From NCBI GenBank assembly GCA_011772205.1, contig WVZY01000076.1:69092-114566 (forward strand): a DNA stretch of 45,475 bases. Direction: 5' to 3'. Source of the DNA: Candidatus Latescibacterota bacterium. GTDB lineage: Bacteria; Krumholzibacteriota; Krumholzibacteriia; WVZY01. Position numbers and translations under genes: made by a program. The stretch's first letter is position 1. Every line of letters begins with the position of its first letter. The notes beneath the pieces are model-generated. The model searched no databases. It was given only the letters and a program-made list of their open reading frames with translations, and had not been told where the DNA came from. Shown piece after piece: positions 31,396 through 45,196 of this stretch.

Positions 31396-31502
31396 GGATT
31401 TGCCAGCTAATTTCACTGGCGGTGAAGATCCTGAAAGGGCATTTGTCACTCGACGCCGGGGTGAATGCCCGCATTTCAATTGATTCAAAAAGCAGGAAGA
31501 TC

Positions 31503-31919
31503 ATGGTGTATGTAACAAGGAGAGCGTTCTTCTGTGCCGCTCATCGTTATTATGACCAATCACTATCCAGTGAAAAGAACCGCGAACAGTTTGGCCCTTG
31601 TGTGAACACGCACGGACACAATTATGAACTCGAGGTTACGGTAGTAGGCGAACCTGACGAGAAGACAGGCATGGTCGTGAACCTTACGTCCCTCGACGCG
31701 ATTGTGAAGAAACGTGTGATCGATATCCTAGACCATAAGAATCTCAATGTTGACATCGAGGAGTTCAAGAGCGTGGTACCCACAACAGAGATGATTGCGA
31801 GGTATGCTTGGATGCGTCTTGAAAACTGCATCGAGGGAGCCACCCTTTACCGGGTGCGTCTGTACGAAGACCCGACACTTTTTGTGGACTACTATGGAGA
31901 GGGAGAACACGCCGGATGA
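31503..31919 (+). CDS. 6-pyruvoyl-tetrahydropterin synthase / QueD family protein 1
   Basis: 138 residues from the ATG at 31503, preceded by AGGAAG; the family start (VYVTRRAFFCAAHRYY) fits this and not the ATG at 31422. Zinc ligands are H14, H37 and H39 (NTHGHNY), with catalytic cysteine C33 (GPCVN). A terminal glutamate is present in VRLYEDPTLFVDY. Such enzymes act on dihydroneopterin triphosphate made by GTP cyclohydrolase I, giving 6-pyruvoyl- or 6-carboxy-tetrahydropterin. Its stop overlaps the next gene's start (ATGA), so the two are translated together. Confidence 0.9.
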   Translation: MVYVTRRAFFCAAHRYYDQSLSSEKNREQFGPCVNTHGHNYELEVTVVGEPDEKTGMVVNLTSLDAIVKKRVIDILDHKNLNVDIEEFKSVVPTTEMIARYAWMRLENCIEGATLYRVRLYEDPTLFVDYYGEGEHAG

Positions 31920-32350
31920 CCCATTTGACGTTTGTATCGGAGTTCAACTCTTATCACAGAATGAGGAGCGAAGCTCTCGATGATGCCGAGAACACCCGGA
32001 TCTTCGGCAAATGTGCCAATCCGTCCGGACATGGTCACCGATACCGCATCGAAGTGACGCTGGCCGCGAAAGTTACGGAGAAACGTCCATATGTCCTGCC
32101 GCGAACCGAGATTAGTCGGCTGGTCGAGGAAATCCTTGCGCCAAAGCTTCGGCATCGAAACGTCGATGAAGTTTTTGGCCCGGGATTCGTTTCGAGTGGA
32201 GAAAACCTTGCGAAAGCAATCTGGAACCTCATTGAAACCGAACTTACAACTGAAGTCTCGCTGATCTCGGTAAAAGTGGTCGAGACACGTAAAAACGCAT
32301 TTGTATACAGGGAAGAATCGAAGAACTCATCCCGACAGTTGCTCATATGA
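31916..32350 (+). CDS. 6-pyruvoyl-tetrahydropterin synthase / QueD family protein 2
   Basis: A 144-residue second homologue, clearly diverged from the first. Zinc ligands are H14, H39 and H41 (PSGHGHRYRIEV), with cysteine C33 (GKCANP), and the carboxylate region is VKVVETRKNAFVY. All catalytic residues are kept, so it is an enzyme rather than a dead copy. The start overlaps the previous stop by four bases. Adjacent paralogues could have different products, or could form a mixed oligomer (inference). Confidence 0.9.
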   Translation: MTHLTFVSEFNSYHRMRSEALDDAENTRIFGKCANPSGHGHRYRIEVTLAAKVTEKRPYVLPRTEISRLVEEILAPKLRHRNVDEVFGPGFVSSGENLAKAIWNLIETELTTEVSLISVKVVETRKNAFVYREESKNSSRQLLI

Positions 32351-37793: not shown

Positions 37794-38223
37794 AACGCGT
37801 GCCCTTCATCGGAGCGGGTCAATCCCGCCGCCAAGAAGCCATCGGAAATCGACAACATGTCTTAGACGTGGCTGGATAGAATAGCAGTCAGGACACCCTG
37901 CTCTCAGGGGAACGCTTTGAACGTTCCACTGGAATGCGGTCGAATCGGTTGCAAACCACCAGCGTATCCTAAAACCGAGTGGCTGTCAACTTGGGGCCGT
38001 TGTACTGTACGGCCAATTGTGACGCGTTAAAAATAAACAGCGACGGTGCCTCGATCGCCACTCAGCTCATGGTCCTTGAATGCATCGGGTGATTGAGCGC
38101 CAAAGCTTTTGACAAACGTGCACCGTTGTCGTATTCTGCCCGTTGCGTTTCTGATCCCGGTAAGAAAGCCATTCGATGCGGCGAACAATCTTTCGCATTC
38201 ACGGCCGCCGAGGAGGTGAGGTT
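37794..38223. other. Divergent intergenic region
   Basis: 430 bases between the small barrel gene (minus) and the thiamine-binding-family gene (plus). It holds a 6-bp inverted repeat (GGCCGT at 37995-38000 with ACGGCC at 38009-38014) and the promoter at 38109-38137. No gene is seen. Confidence 0.55.
38109..38137 (+). promoter_or_regulatory. Sigma-70-type promoter for the thiamine-binding-family gene
   Basis: TTGACA at 38109-38114 and TATTCT at 38132-38137 with exactly 17 bases between. The start would be near 38144, about 80 bases before the GTG at 38224. Confidence 0.65.
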
Positions 38224-38664: not shown

Positions 38665-39216
38665 ATGATAAAGCCTGACAAATGGATTCGTCGGATGGTG
38701 CAGGAGCATCGCATGATCAGTCCCTTCGTCGATCGGCAGGAAAGGGATGGAAAAATCTCCTACGGGATTTCGTCATACGGTTACGATATCCGCATCTCGG
38801 ATGAGTTCAAGATTTTCACGAACATCAATTCGACCGTCGTGGATCCCAAGACGTTCGATCCAAATGCATTCGAGGATTTCAAGGGGGATGTCTGCATCAT
38901 CCCTCCGAACTCGTTCGCTCTGGGGCGGAGCGTGGAGTACTTCCGCATTCCTCGAAACGTCATGACGATCTGTGTCGGCAAGTCCACTTACGCTCGCTGC
39001 GGAATTATTACGAACGTTACCCCTTTCGAGCCCGAGTGGGAAGGATTCGTTACGCTGGAAATCTCGAACACAACCCCCCTGCCCGCGAAAGTGTACGCGA
39101 ATGAAGGGATTGCGCAGGTTCTGTTCTTCGAAAGCGACGAGGAGTGCCAGTTCTCCTACGAGGATAAGAAAGGCAAATACCAGGCTCAGGACGGCATAAT
39201 CCTGCCCAAGGTGTAG
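38665..39216 (+). CDS. dcd: dCTP deaminase
   Basis: A 183-residue trimeric enzyme that deaminates dCTP to dUTP. Segments are [40 protein letters not shown] and the catalytic [15 protein letters not shown] with its active glutamate, ending in YQAQDGI. Length suits the mono-functional type, although some relatives also hydrolyse dUTP. An AGGAAGGG ribosome site precedes the ATG. It is 138 bases after the thiamine-binding-family gene. Confidence 0.95.
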
Positions 39217-39312
39217 GCGTCCGCGGCCGGCGGCGAGCCGGGCGGCACCGGACCGACACTCCCCAATCGGCCTCCAGACCTCGAAAAAAGGCACCTTGGC
39301 GCTATTTTCCCT

Positions 39313-39341
39313 TTGACAGGATTTGCGAATTAGGGTATTCA
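39313..39341 (+). promoter_or_regulatory. Promoter-like element for the histone gene
   Basis: TTGACA at 39313-39318 with TATTCA at 39336-39341, spacer 17. A short leader of about 55 bases would run to the ATG at 39403. The -10 half is a modest match. Confidence 0.45.
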
Positions 39342-39402
39342 AGTTATGACTTTAATGTTTATGTCGTCTCTTGGTCTTCCTTTTCAAAACAGGAGGGGTT
39401 AC

Positions 39403-39600
39403 ATGGCTAAGATGAAGAAGAAGGCGAAAGCGGCTGATCTCATCATCTCTAAGGCGCGAACAAAAGGCGCCGTGAAGAACGCCAACGTCGCCGGCGAGTT
39501 CTACGGAGCTCTGGACAAGAGGGTTCGCGAGATAATCAAAGGCGCCGAGATACGCGCCAAAGCGAACAAGAGGAAAACCCTGAAGGCGTGTGATCTCTAA
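39403..39600 (+). CDS. Bacterial single-histone-fold protein (Bdellovibrio Bd0055-like)
   Basis: 65 residues, from the ATG with a strong AGGAGGGG ribosome site; the in-frame ATG at 39346 lacks one. The first 12 residues are Lys/Ala-rich (AKMKKKAKAADL), then a short helix, NVAGEFYGALDKRVREIIKG as the long central helix, and RAKANKRKTLKACDL. That last segment corresponds to the histone-fold strand loop 'RAK-N-RKT-----DL', with the R-K-T that touches DNA. The protein stops at the start of helix 3, as in short bacterial histones; archaeal histones continue. Very basic, so DNA binding is expected. It has its own promoter and a strong terminator, fitting a highly expressed stand-alone chromatin protein. 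Confidence 0.75.
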   Translation: MAKMKKKAKAADLIISKARTKGAVKNANVAGEFYGALDKRVREIIKGAEIRAKANKRKTLKACDL

Positions 39601-39644: not shown

Positions 39645-39685
39645 CGGGGGTTCTGGTGCAAAGCCTGAACCCCCGTTTTGTTTTA
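39645..39685 (+). terminator. Strong Rho-independent terminator after the histone gene
   Basis: CGGGGGTTC (39645-39653) pairs exactly with GAACCCCCG (39667-39675), a 9-bp stem with a 13-base loop, followed by TTTTGTTTT. It lies 45 bases after the stop codon. The minus strand lacks an equally good T-run, so it serves the histone transcript. Confidence 0.85.
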
Positions 39686-39863: not shown

Positions 39864-41354
39864 TTATCCGAAGAAAAGACTGGCCGAGTGACTGACCCAA
39901 CGGGCGATGGGTCCCCAGAAAATGCCCGATACCGCCGTTCCTACGGCAAGTATGGTGAGAAGCGTGATGGTCGTGGGGGAGGAGACGAATCCGCCGAGAT
40001 CCTCCGCGTCGATTCCGCGGAGGAACATCACCTTGATGATCCTGGCATAGTAGTAGAGCGATATGACGCTGTTCGCGATGGCAACTATGGCCAGCCAGAT
40101 GAAGCGTTCTCCTTGGATGATCGATGCGAACAGATAGACTTTTCCGATGAAACCGCCAAACGGGGGAATGCCGGTGAGAGAGAAGAGAAAGATCGCCATC
40201 GAAACGGCAACAAAAGCGCCAATCGGTGACCGCCATGCAAGACCCGTGTAATCACCAATCTGCTCGCTTCGGGTCTGGCTCCGGAAATTCAGCACCACGA
40301 GGAAGGCACCAAGATTCATGAGTAGGTACACGACGAAATAAAATAGCAGCGCCTGAGTTCCGAGCTGGGACAACGCAACGACTCCCATGAGGAGGTACCC
40401 TGCGTGCGCGATGCTCGAATATGCGAGAAGTCGCTTGATGTTCGATTGATTGATGGCGAGGAGGTTTCCAATTGTCATCGTGGCGGCGGAGATGATGGCG
40501 ACCAGAAACGGCCAGTCCACGCTCGAGATATCTGTGAGATAGGCGGCGGCACCGTCTGATGAGGAGAATGCGACGTGGAGCATACGGACCAGAACGGCGA
40601 ATCCCGCAGCTTTCGGTCCAACGGACAGGAATGCGGTTATCGGTGTCGGCGCGCCTTCGTATACATCCGGGCACCACATGTGGAACGGAAACACGGCGAT
40701 TTTGTAGCCCAAACCCGCAAGGATGAAAATCAAAGAGATGAGCACGATGATCTCTCCAGGATTCCCGGCCGAGAGCGCGTCACGGATGCCTTCGAAGGAA
40801 AGCGAGCCCGTCACCCCGAAGAGCAGCGAAATGCCATAGACCATGAGCCCGCTCGATGCGGCGCCGAATATTACGTACTTGAGACTCGCCTCGCTCGAGC
40901 GCCTGCTGCGGCTGATATAACCGGCCAGCACATAGCATGGAACACTTACCAGCTCGAGGGTCAGGAAAGCCATGAGCATGTGGTTCGAGGATGCGAGCAG
41001 CACGGCACCCAGTGTCGTTGCGGCGATGAATCCCATATACTCCCCGAAGTTTTTTTCTTCCACTTCGTCGGATTCCATCGAGAAAAGCGTCACAAGGACG
41101 GCCGTCACGATAAAAATGACCTTGAAAAACACGGAGAAGGGATCCAGCGATACCATTCCGAGAAACAGGGTCACGCCTTCGGCGCCCGGGGTTTTGAGGA
41201 CGGCGTAGAGGGATACGAGAAGCCCAACGACCATCAAGGTGGCGATCGGGACTTTCTTCCTTTTAAGACCCAGGTCGACGAGGAAGACGGCGAGTACGAG
41301 CGCCGTTAGGAGCAGCTCCGGCAAGAAATATCTAAGACTCTCGACATTGGCCAT
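39864..41354 (-). CDS. nuoN: NADH-quinone oxidoreductase subunit N
   Basis: A 496-residue, about 14-helix proton-pumping membrane subunit of complex I. The antiporter-type signature is intact: the glutamate-bearing helix (FLTLELVSVPCYVLAGY), the lysine helix GLGYKIAVFPFHMWCPDVYE, and SNIKRLLAYSSIAHAGYLLMG. Last gene of the nuoK-L-M-N run, 15 bases after nuoM. No terminator is visible in the 188 bases between it and the histone terminator. Confidence 0.96.
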   Translation of the reverse strand: MANVESLRYFLPELLLTALVLAVFLVDLGLKRKKVPIATLMVVGLLVSLYAVLKTPGAEGVTLFLGMVSLDPFSVFFKVIFIVTAVLVTLFSMESDEVEEKNFGEYMGFIAATTLGAVLLASSNHMLMAFLTLELVSVPCYVLAGYISRSRRSSEASLKYVIFGAASSGLMVYGISLLFGVTGSLSFEGIRDALSAGNPGEIIVLISLIFILAGLGYKIAVFPFHMWCPDVYEGAPTPITAFLSVGPKAAGFAVLVRMLHVAFSSSDGAAAYLTDISSVDWPFLVAIISAATMTIGNLLAINQSNIKRLLAYSSIAHAGYLLMGVVALSQLGTQALLFYFVVYLLMNLGAFLVVLNFRSQTRSEQIGDYTGLAWRSPIGAFVAVSMAIFLFSLTGIPPFGGFIGKVYLFASIIQGERFIWLAIVAIANSVISLYYYARIIKVMFLRGIDAEDLGGFVSSPTTITLLTILAVGTAVSGIFWGPIARWVSHSASLFFG

Positions 41355-41369
41355 CTCAGCAGGTCCTTC

Positions 41370-42869
41370 TTATCCTCCCGTTACGAGCTTGTTGAGGTGG
41401 TCGAGGGAGGTTTTGATGAGGTTCAGCACTGGCATTGGATAAACTCCGACGAAGAAGACGATGACGGCAAGCGGGACGAGCGTGAACAGCTCCCGCCCGT
41501 TGATCTCCGGGAGGGCTTTGTATTTTTCCTTCAGGCTACCGAGGAACATTCGCTGCATCGTCCACAGTATGTAGCCTGCTGTGAGGACTACTCCTATGGC
41601 GGATACTATGGTGAGCATCCGGTAGGTTTGGAAAGCCCCGATGAACACGAGCGCTTCACTGATGAAGCCGCTCAAGCCGGGCAGTCCCAAAGCGGCGAAA
41701 AACGCGATCGCCGTAATCACGCTGTAGCGGGGCATCTGGTGGGCTAGGCCGCCGAATCCCTCGATATCACGATGGTGGGCGCGATCGTAAATCACGCCTA
41801 CGATAAGAAAGAGCATGGCCGTGATCGTTCCGTGGTTGAACATCTGGAGGACGGCGCCGTTGATCCCTTCGCTGGTGAAGCTGGACATCCCCAGGAGCAC
41901 GAAGCCCATGTGGCTGATGCTCGAGTAGGCGACGAGCCTTTTCACATCTTTCTGAGCCATGGCGCAGAGCGCGCCGTAGATGATGTTGATCATCCCCATG
42001 ACGGCGAGGAACAGGGCGAAGTGTCGTGTCGCGTCGGGAAGCAGCGGATAGCTGATCCTCAATATCCCATAGGTCCCCATCTTCAGGAGGATGCCGGCGA
42101 GAATCACGCTGATTGGCGTCGGGGCTTCCACGTGGGCGTCGGGAAGCCATGTATGGAACGGAAATACCGGTACTTTTATCGCGAATCCAATATAAAGGGC
42201 TATCCAGCAGACGTTGCGGAGCGTCATGCTGGTTAGAGGACCAATGTGGACGTTTTGTTGTTGGAGAAGGACCAGGTCGAACGTGTGCTTGCCCGTCAAG
42301 GGGTCCCGGCTGAAGAAGTAGAAAGCGAGCATCACGAGAAGCATCAGTACGGAGCCGAGGAGTGTATAGAGAAAGAACTTGATCGCTGCATATTCTCGCC
42401 TCGGGCCGCCCCAGATCCCGATCAAGAAGTACATGGGAAGGAGCATGACTTCCCAGAAAACGTAGAAAAGGAAAAAGTCGAGGGCGCAAAAAACACCCAT
42501 CATTCCCGTATCGAGGAGCAGGAACAGGACGAAGAAGCCTTTCACTCCCTTGGTGATTCCCCACGAAGCAAAGATGCAGAGGAAACAAAGGAGGGCTGTT
42601 AGAAGAACCATTGTCACGCTGACCCCGTCGATCCCCAAGTAGTAGTGGATGTTGAACGCCCTGATCCACTCGGTTCTCTCGACGAACTGGAAGCCAGATG
42701 TCGTCCTGTCGAACGAGACGAACACCTTGATTGCGAGTGCCAACGGAAGCGCCGTGGCACCCGCTGAGATCCAACGGATAAGGTTGTGCTGATGTCTCGG
42801 CACGATGGCCACGATCGCCGCTCCGATGAGCGGGAAAAATATCAACCACGATAAGATGTGGCTAACCAT
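41370..42869 (-). CDS. nuoM: NADH-quinone oxidoreductase subunit M
   Basis: A 499-residue membrane subunit of the proton-pumping arm. It has YVFWEVMLLPMYFLIGIWGG with the key glutamate, GFAIKVPVFPFHTWLPDAHV with the key lysine, and KDVKRLVAYSSISHMGFVLLG. It begins with the usual ILSWLIFFPLIGAAIVAI. Separated from nuoL by 134 bases, unusually wide for this operon, and followed tightly by nuoN. Confidence 0.96.
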   Translation of the reverse strand: MVSHILSWLIFFPLIGAAIVAIVPRHQHNLIRWISAGATALPLALAIKVFVSFDRTTSGFQFVERTEWIRAFNIHYYLGIDGVSVTMVLLTALLCFLCIFASWGITKGVKGFFVLFLLLDTGMMGVFCALDFFLFYVFWEVMLLPMYFLIGIWGGPRREYAAIKFFLYTLLGSVLMLLVMLAFYFFSRDPLTGKHTFDLVLLQQQNVHIGPLTSMTLRNVCWIALYIGFAIKVPVFPFHTWLPDAHVEAPTPISVILAGILLKMGTYGILRISYPLLPDATRHFALFLAVMGMINIIYGALCAMAQKDVKRLVAYSSISHMGFVLLGMSSFTSEGINGAVLQMFNHGTITAMLFLIVGVIYDRAHHRDIEGFGGLAHQMPRYSVITAIAFFAALGLPGLSGFISEALVFIGAFQTYRMLTIVSAIGVVLTAGYILWTMQRMFLGSLKEKYKALPEINGRELFTLVPLAVIVFFVGVYPMPVLNLIKTSLDHLNKLVTGG

Positions 42870-43003
42870 TTGAGTAAACCCTCCACTGAGTTGAATTCAT
42901 CAAAATCAAATTCCGACCCCTTCCTCTGTGCCCGAAGGGCTGGTGGATGCAGGATATGTATCTCGAAACGAAATCGAATGCGCTGCAGTTAACGGATGAT
43001 TTC

Positions 43004-45196
43004 CTATAACAGCCATTTCAAACAGATGATCAAGACTGTAATGCTGAACACAAAATACAAGTATCCCTGGATTTGGCCGGACTGGATCACGCGGAGTCGT
43101 TGCCCGGTCGCTGTAACAATATTCGCCACGGCATTGACGAGACCGTCTATGAACGAGTTGTCAAATAGGCCGGTAACGAAGGAGAAAATCTTGGTGAAAA
43201 ATGCGGTCCCGTTTACCAGTCCATCGATCACCAGGTTGTCGAATATACCGCATCCCTTCACCGTTCTCAGGAGATTGTCGACGAAAGCTGCCTGATAGAT
43301 CTCGTCCACGTAGTATTTGTTCTCTATGACACGATGAATCAAGCCCCCGGCTATTCCCTTCAAGCGGTTAACGATATCAATTCTCTTGGTGTAGAACCTG
43401 AACCCGAGAAATCCACAGAGAATTACCCAAAGCACGGAAATCACGGCAAAGAAGCGCTCCAAACCGTGATCTTCTGCATCCCCGTTGTGAGCGCCGCCAT
43501 GCTGTGTCTCCAGCTCGGAACTTCCAATCGCCGCACGTGCCTCCTCGACGGGCGCGATCAGGCCGTCCGCCGCGGTATCGTGGGAGGCGTCGGCATCCGG
43601 CAAGGTAGCAACAAACGATTCGCCCGAAGCTGAGAAAGTCGCGTGGAGGTCTTCGCCACCGGGTTCGTGCGAGGCATGCGAAAATACCGGTTCCAGCCAG
43701 TGGTGAAATGCATCATTTCCGCCAAGCCCCTTCGGGATTCCAATCCACCCGCCAACAAAGGAGAGTACGGCCAGTATCACGAGGGGCCAGAGCATGACCT
43801 TGGGGGACTCGTGAATGTGATGCTGCGTTTCGGCATCGGCACGGTTCTTTCCGAAAAACGTGAGGGCGACGAGGCGGAACATATAGAACGCAGTCACTCC
43901 CGCGCCAATGAACCCGATTACCCACAGGCCGTAATGGCCGCTTGCCCACGTTTTCCATAGGATCTCGTCCTTGGAGAAAAATCCTGCAAACGGGAAGATT
44001 CCCACGATGGCAAGAGTTGCCGTCATGAATGTGATATACGTGACACGGAGCGGGCTCCTGAGGCCCCCCATTTCCCGCATGTCCTGCCGGTTGCTCATTG
44101 CATGAATCACCGAGCCGGCACCGAGAAAGAGAAGGCCTTTGAAAAATGCGTGCGTCATCAAGTGAAAGATCCCTGCAGCGTACGCGGCCACGCCCACGCC
44201 GAGAAACATGTACCCCAGCTGGCTGACCGTGGAGTACGCGAGTACTCTTTTGATGTCGTTCTGGGCGAGTCCGATACTTCCCGCATACAGCGCGGTGACG
44301 GCTCCCACGGTGGCGACAACGGCAAGAGCGGCCGGGGATGCGGTGTAAATAAAATTCATCCTCGCGATCATATAAACGCCGGCAGTAACCATTGTAGCGG
44401 CATGAATCAAAGCGCTGACCGGTGTGGGGCCGGCCATCGCATCGGGGAGCCATGTATAGAGCGGGATTTGAGCGGATTTACCGGTTGCTCCGACGAACAG
44501 GCAAAGGGCGATCGCAGTGACGACGCCTCCCCTACCCAGGAGATAAGAGTGTTCGGAGAGCTCCGAAAAGGTCAGCGTCCAGTGACCTTTCAGTCCCAAG
44601 CTCACAAAGAGTAGCAGTATACCTATGAGAAATCCAAAATCGCCGATTCGGTTGACGATGAAGGCTTTCATTCCCGCAACGGCGTTTGGCTTGTGATCGA
44701 ACCAGAAGCCGATCAATAGATAGGAACAGAGCCCGACGCCTTCCCAGCCGACGAACATCAGCAGAAGGTTGTTGCCAAGGACCAGGAGGAGCATCGAGAA
44801 GGTGAAGAGGTTCATGTACGAAAAGTATCTGGAATAACCGGAATCATGTCCCATGTATCCGATCGAATAGACGTGGATGAGGAAGCCAACACCGGTGACG
44901 ACGAGGGCCATTACGCAGCTCAGTTGATCAAAGAGAAAGCCGGCGTCGAGGTGTACGTTACCGACTTCGATCCACGTGTAGACGATGCTTTCGATAGCGC
45001 GATCGGCTGGCGGCAGGGAGCGGAGATAGAACAATCCTCTGATTGAGATGAGGAGAGGGATGAAAACAGCGCCGCATGCGATCCATCCCACCCATCGCTT
45101 GGGCATCCGGTTACCCAGGAATGAATTCAAGCCGTTGATGAACGAGCCGATAAAAGGGATCAGCACGATGAGGTATATATGCTCTTCGAACCACAT
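43004..45196 (-). CDS. nuoL: NADH-quinone oxidoreductase subunit L
   Basis: A 730-residue subunit L, longer than the usual 600-650. The pumping core is standard: GWEGVGLCSYLLIGFW, GKSAQIPLYTWLPDAMAGPT and NDIKRVLAYSTVSQLGYMFLG. Extra length comes from a hydrophilic loop at about residues 500-580, rich in His, Asp, Glu and Ala (HASHEPGGEDLH, ETQHGGAHNGDAEDHG). The final section includes the amphipathic lateral helix region and a last membrane anchor. Seven bases after nuoK. Confidence 0.96.
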   Translation of the reverse strand: MWFEEHIYLIVLIPFIGSFINGLNSFLGNRMPKRWVGWIACGAVFIPLLISIRGLFYLRSLPPADRAIESIVYTWIEVGNVHLDAGFLFDQLSCVMALVVTGVGFLIHVYSIGYMGHDSGYSRYFSYMNLFTFSMLLLVLGNNLLLMFVGWEGVGLCSYLLIGFWFDHKPNAVAGMKAFIVNRIGDFGFLIGILLLFVSLGLKGHWTLTFSELSEHSYLLGRGGVVTAIALCLFVGATGKSAQIPLYTWLPDAMAGPTPVSALIHAATMVTAGVYMIARMNFIYTASPAALAVVATVGAVTALYAGSIGLAQNDIKRVLAYSTVSQLGYMFLGVGVAAYAAGIFHLMTHAFFKGLLFLGAGSVIHAMSNRQDMREMGGLRSPLRVTYITFMTATLAIVGIFPFAGFFSKDEILWKTWASGHYGLWVIGFIGAGVTAFYMFRLVALTFFGKNRADAETQHHIHESPKVMLWPLVILAVLSFVGGWIGIPKGLGGNDAFHHWLEPVFSHASHEPGGEDLHATFSASGESFVATLPDADASHDTAADGLIAPVEEARAAIGSSELETQHGGAHNGDAEDHGLERFFAVISVLWVILCGFLGFRFYTKRIDIVNRLKGIAGGLIHRVIENKYYVDEIYQAAFVDNLLRTVKGCGIFDNLVIDGLVNGTAFFTKIFSFVTGLFDNSFIDGLVNAVANIVTATGQRLRVIQSGQIQGYLYFVFSITVLIICLKWLL

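Follow-up and report, generated by a model that had tools for sequence, protein, structure and literature searches.

The alpha3 histones, the superfamily of Schwab et al. (2024), are characterized by an RxTxxxxD motif (PMC11390915; PMC12701072), with an alpha3 of no more than 3-4 residues and an alpha2 that is 4-5 residues shorter. Two of them, HTkC and HLp, are face-to-face (FtF) histones with solved tetramers, and a third, HBb (Bd0055), is a dimer (PMC11390915; PMC12701072; PMC11317129). In the HLp crystal, the tetramer interface is built by R49, N53 and R55, and the homotetramer wraps ~60 bp of DNA (PMC12701072). HBb is a DNA-bending dimer (PMC11317129), and in bacterial dimer histones the R and N conserved at the FtF interface are missing (PMC11390915). 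Positively charged tails are common, being found in most bacterial FtF histones (PMC11390915).

The stretch of DNA analysed here (the window, 45,475 nucleotides from a Candidatus Latescibacterota bacterium) contains at 39403-39600 of the forward strand an open reading frame, stop codon TAA included, for the 65-aa protein P0001, MAKMKKKAKAADLIISKARTKGAVKNANVAGEFYGALDKRVREIIKGAEIRAKANKRKTLKACDL. Homologues of 55-78% identity are present in many genomes, both related and more distant, so the reading frame did not arise by chance. The gene is real and its limits are correctly set; most homologues show a strong Shine-Dalgarno sequence ahead of the chosen start. P0001 has a net charge of about +12 and a pI of 10.4. 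The original prediction of a stand-alone bacterial histone of 65 aa agrees with the translation, the homologues and the profile matches to solved histones. Two details of that prediction needed correction: the first ten residues hold five Lys rather than six, and the C-terminal segment, spelled differently there, reads RAKANKRKTLKACDL. The gene and the parts of its product are as follows.

39403-39600, forward strand: FtF alpha3 histone gene P0001 (homologues 55-78% identical, profile matches to HTkC and HLp, FtF residues invariant)
39403-39435, forward strand: basic N-terminal tail MAKMKKKAKAA, residues 1-11, predicted to be unstructured (the first helix of the alignment-based model starts at residue 17)
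39451-39480, forward strand: predicted helix alpha1, residues 17-26 (AlphaFold2 model, 60-sequence alignment)
39493-39564, forward strand: predicted helix alpha2, residues 31-54, with the tetramer residue R51 (AlphaFold2 model; R51 in 60/60)
39565-39597, forward strand: L2 loop and truncated alpha3, with N55, R57, T59 and D64 and a predicted 3-residue alpha3 at 62-64 (alignment and model)

P0001 is a further member of the already described FtF histones. Searches of Pfam and NCBIfam with P0001 alone gave no match, and the single sequence matched HTkC in the PDB at 0.0019. A family profile built from 16 relatives was matched against solved histones and found HTkC (5.6e-12), HLp (4.8e-6), HBb/Bd0055 (0.0024) and the archaeal-type HmvA (0.011). 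The original prediction had placed the protein in the Bd0055 type. This assignment was not upheld, as HTkC and HLp rank far above HBb, the weakest of the three profile-matched alpha3 histones of solved structure. Moreover, all 60 aligned homologues carry, without exception, R51, N55, R57, T59 and D64, which correspond to HLp R49, N53, R55, T57 and D62. R57, T59 and D64 supply the RxTxxxxD motif, and R51 and N55 are the conserved interface R and N of FtF histones (R48 and N52 of the HMM). HBb reads ...VESAKADGRKT..., with S at the R51 position and D at the N55 position. A Bd0055/HBb-type protein would stay dimeric and bend DNA or coat it edge-on. This is unlikely for P0001, even though the truncated alpha3 and short alpha2 are shared, a weak profile similarity to HBb exists, and the conserved Ser-Lys of alpha1 (S16-K17) recalls S9-K10 of bacterial histones (PMC10627809). 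The interface R and N missing from bacterial dimers are present and invariant in the P0001 family. Two further histone classes were rejected: P0001 is a 65-aa singlet and not the doublet fold (~138 positions) of a DUF1931 pseudodimer histone, and its tail has no cysteine or histidine for the N-terminal zinc finger of a ZZ histone.

In the alignment-based AlphaFold2 model, the helices fall at the lengths typical of alpha3 histones, with alpha2 at 31-54 and a 3-residue alpha3 at 62-64, in line with the short helix 3 originally predicted. Confidence in this monomer model is moderate (pLDDT 72.8, pTM 0.47), and a Foldseek search with it gave no significant match; both matches listed were histone-containing complexes. 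The fold assignment is therefore based on the sequence profile and the motif. A model made from the single sequence, consisting of one helix (5-64), was set aside because folding without an alignment is unreliable. Together with the empty Pfam result for P0001 alone and the non-significant Foldseek search, this single helix would suit a protein that is no histone at all, such as a lysine-rich coiled coil or an H1/HU-tail-like peptide. That explanation is extremely improbable, since the alignment-based model splits into alpha1-alpha2-alpha3 and the profile hits on solved histones reach the values given above.

Taken together, P0001 is very probably an FtF alpha3 histone whose handshake dimers would join into a closed, DNA-wrapping tetramer, expressed from its own promoter and acting beside HU. 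The signals around the gene and its upstream neighbour are listed below.

38665-39216, forward strand: dcd-like dCTP deaminase (PF22769, 2.2e-35), upstream neighbour conserved in the family
39312-39341, forward strand: putative sigma-70-like promoter (TTGACA at 39313-39318, 17-nt spacer, TATTCA at 39336-39341), recognized by conservation
39391-39398, forward strand: Shine-Dalgarno sequence AGGAGGGG, recognized by sequence, just 5' of the ATG at 39403
39645-39684, forward strand: predicted intrinsic terminator with 9-bp stem, 13-nt loop and T-rich tail

Judged from these signals, the histone gene is a single-gene transcription unit with a conserved putative promoter, Shine-Dalgarno sequence and predicted terminator. 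A TTTGACA-N17/18-GTATT block (39312-39339) upstream of the gene is kept in all same-family relatives compared. This block and the Shine-Dalgarno sequence are the main conserved stretches between dcd and the histone gene, and the flanking intergenic sequence is unconserved. A sigma-70 consensus scan called no promoter at the histone gene, and the bare TTTGACA-N17-GTATT-type pattern occurs genome-wide at chance frequency, without enrichment; it is thus conservation that carries the promoter assignment. A second such site (TTTGACA-N17-GTATT), one of five genome-wide, lies at 38108-38135, upstream of a thiamine-binding-protein/dcd pair. In the terminator, the stem arms CGGGGGTTC and GAACCCCCG are followed by TTTTGTTTT (39645-39675). 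This hairpin-plus-T element is the sole one in the window under the stem/T-tract test used; a generic terminator scan did not call it because its loop has 13 nt. A hairpin and T tract within ~90 nt past the stop were found after 79/115 homologues, against 1/521 random places and 2/575 shuffles. The own promoter, strong ribosome site and 9-bp stem terminator of the original prediction are consistent with these results. Its suggestion of high expression gains no support from codon usage (CAI 0.759 against an expected 0.736 ± 0.038, a comparison of 65 codons with little power).

All-ORF clustering of the neighbourhoods was dominated by shadow ORFs, and a targeted comparison of loci was used instead. 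The dcd neighbour is 82-84% identical in four same-family loci (L031, L038, L040 and L061), and its adjacency to the histone gene is kept in 4/4 same-family loci whose upstream side was covered. Downstream of the histone gene, the window carries a convergent nuoN/M/L cluster (39864-45196), and three same-family loci (L031, L045 and L061) have in its place a gene judged from sequence to be IMP-dehydrogenase-like. This difference in the downstream gene points to a rearrangement just past the histone terminator. Elsewhere in the window (31422-32347), a tandem pair of divergent 6-pyruvoyl tetrahydropterin synthase genes is followed by GTP cyclohydrolase I, and the synthase pair is also kept in L061 and L040.

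A match was found in 31 of 58 related genomes, weaker paralogues included, and in a profile search 48 of 80 same-phylum genomes had a family member or a paralogue. When 84,980 species genomes were scanned, 239 coding stretches were found, of which 80 were kept. The records of these 80 are titled Latescibacterota, Krumholzibacteria, Myxococcota/Deltaproteobacteria, Planctomycetota, Eisenbacteria, Methylomirabilota and others. A viral contig of 63.9 kb (IMG/VR UViG_3300009506_000024) encodes at L121:2977-3171 a 64-aa stand-alone histone, VERAKANGRKTVRATDL, which has the FtF residues, is 46% identical to P0001 and adjoins a DnaJ-like ORF.

The host genome encodes one histone of the P0001 type and three HU homologues, and was found to contain no match to DUF1931 (PF09123) or to archaeal-type histones. 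Given the HU homologues, packaging need not depend mainly or solely on the histone. These homologues, the lack of codon bias and the lack of this histone in some of the phylum's families would also fit a small basic DNA- or RNA-binding protein of histone-like fold with a local role (regulation, phage or stress) instead of genome-wide packaging. Such a role is very unlikely, as the core is very strongly conserved across several phyla, the single-gene transcription unit is conserved, and the Leptospira relatives are abundant and essential (PMC12701072).

For P0001 as an FtF histone, the following mechanism is proposed by analogy with HLp and HTkC. Two chains would form a histone handshake dimer, and two dimers would then join into a closed tetramer through the alpha2 C-terminus, loop L2 and the short alpha3 (R51, N55 and R57). 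We infer that this tetramer would wrap ~60 bp of DNA irrespective of sequence. In an ungapped register, the HLp DNA contacts S14, K15, K17, G29 and T57 correspond to P0001 S16, K17, R19, G31 and T59, each either identical or a conservative exchange, and the contacts K21 and T27 are lost (A23 and V29). The lysine-rich N-terminal tail, to judge from its charge, probably adds non-specific phosphate contacts. The histone gene would be transcribed singly, from a promoter of its own, and its product would act beside HU-type proteins.

The basic tail had been described as an added feature of this protein. Tails are widespread instead: those longer than 4 residues occur in 71/117 homologues (median 15, maximum 47; overall range 0-47), as is known for bacterial FtF histones. 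Tail presence is strongly clustered on the protein tree, yet requires about five changes; the protein is too short for the tree to give the deep order, and rooting is unsafe because HTkC, HLp and HBb sit on long branches. Within the phylum of the window, the large family f6 and the family f7 carry a tailless core histone. Members of families f1 (that of the window) and f3, of Myxococcota and of Planctomycetota are mostly tailed. Planctomycetota and other relatives (L107:4884-5183, L085:4878-5162 and L104:4893-5159) have 37-47-residue tails of the KKAAKRPA type on the same core. Four family f7 genomes (G019, G011, G023 and G016) encode a second histone (L130-L133) in addition to an FtF histone that belongs to the window's family and has no tail. 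These paralogues are FtF-like, keep the R..N.RKT motif and carry a lysine/alanine-rich, H1-like tail of ~25-45 residues. It is conceivable, but doubtful, that such pairs of tailless and long-tailed FtF histones reflect a bacterial specialization of histone variants, in which the tail would set how tightly tetramers pack. An apparent histone duplication in G003 was rejected: both copies sit close to contig ends, the DNA upstream of them is nearly identical, and they resemble overlapping pieces of the assembly.

What does P0001 add to the known histones? The present analysis documents its gene, histone family, interface residues, helix layout and transcription unit. The corrected class extends the tetramer-forming, DNA-wrapping type of bacterial histone to an uncultured bacterium of a Krumholzibacteriota-like lineage. 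The survey of prokaryotic histones names, in its main text, neither this lineage nor Eisenbacteria nor Methylomirabilota. The natural series of tails on a near-constant core offers matched proteins for probing how a basic tail affects DNA wrapping.

Comparison with the known systems shows likenesses and differences in each case. Bd0055/HBb from Bdellovibrio (PDB 8CMP, 8FVX) shares the alpha3-truncated fold, the RKT motif and the RD clamp, but has no equivalents of R51 and N55 and matches more weakly. HTkC from Thermococcus kodakarensis (PDB 9F2C) is the best profile match and has in common with P0001 the truncated alpha3 and the alpha2 core VSxEFYxALxxxV. However, this FtF histone is archaeal, lacks an N-terminal tail, has E at the N55 position and has a longer alpha1/L1. 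HLp from Leptospira perolatii (PDB 9QT0-9QT2), a bacterial FtF histone, carries the tetramer residues R49, N53 and R55 and the RD clamp at matching positions and, like P0001, is a short stand-alone protein with a disordered N-terminus. Its profile similarity is lower than that of HTkC, and its gene neighbourhood differs from the dcd-linked one of P0001. The tailed FtF histones of Planctomycetota and Myxococcota (loci L032-L107) share both the core and the positively charged tail (PMC11390915), although the P0001 tail, at ~11 residues, is shorter than the median of its tailed relatives. Finally, Leptospira has no HU, whereas in the P0001 genome an FtF histone coexists with HU.
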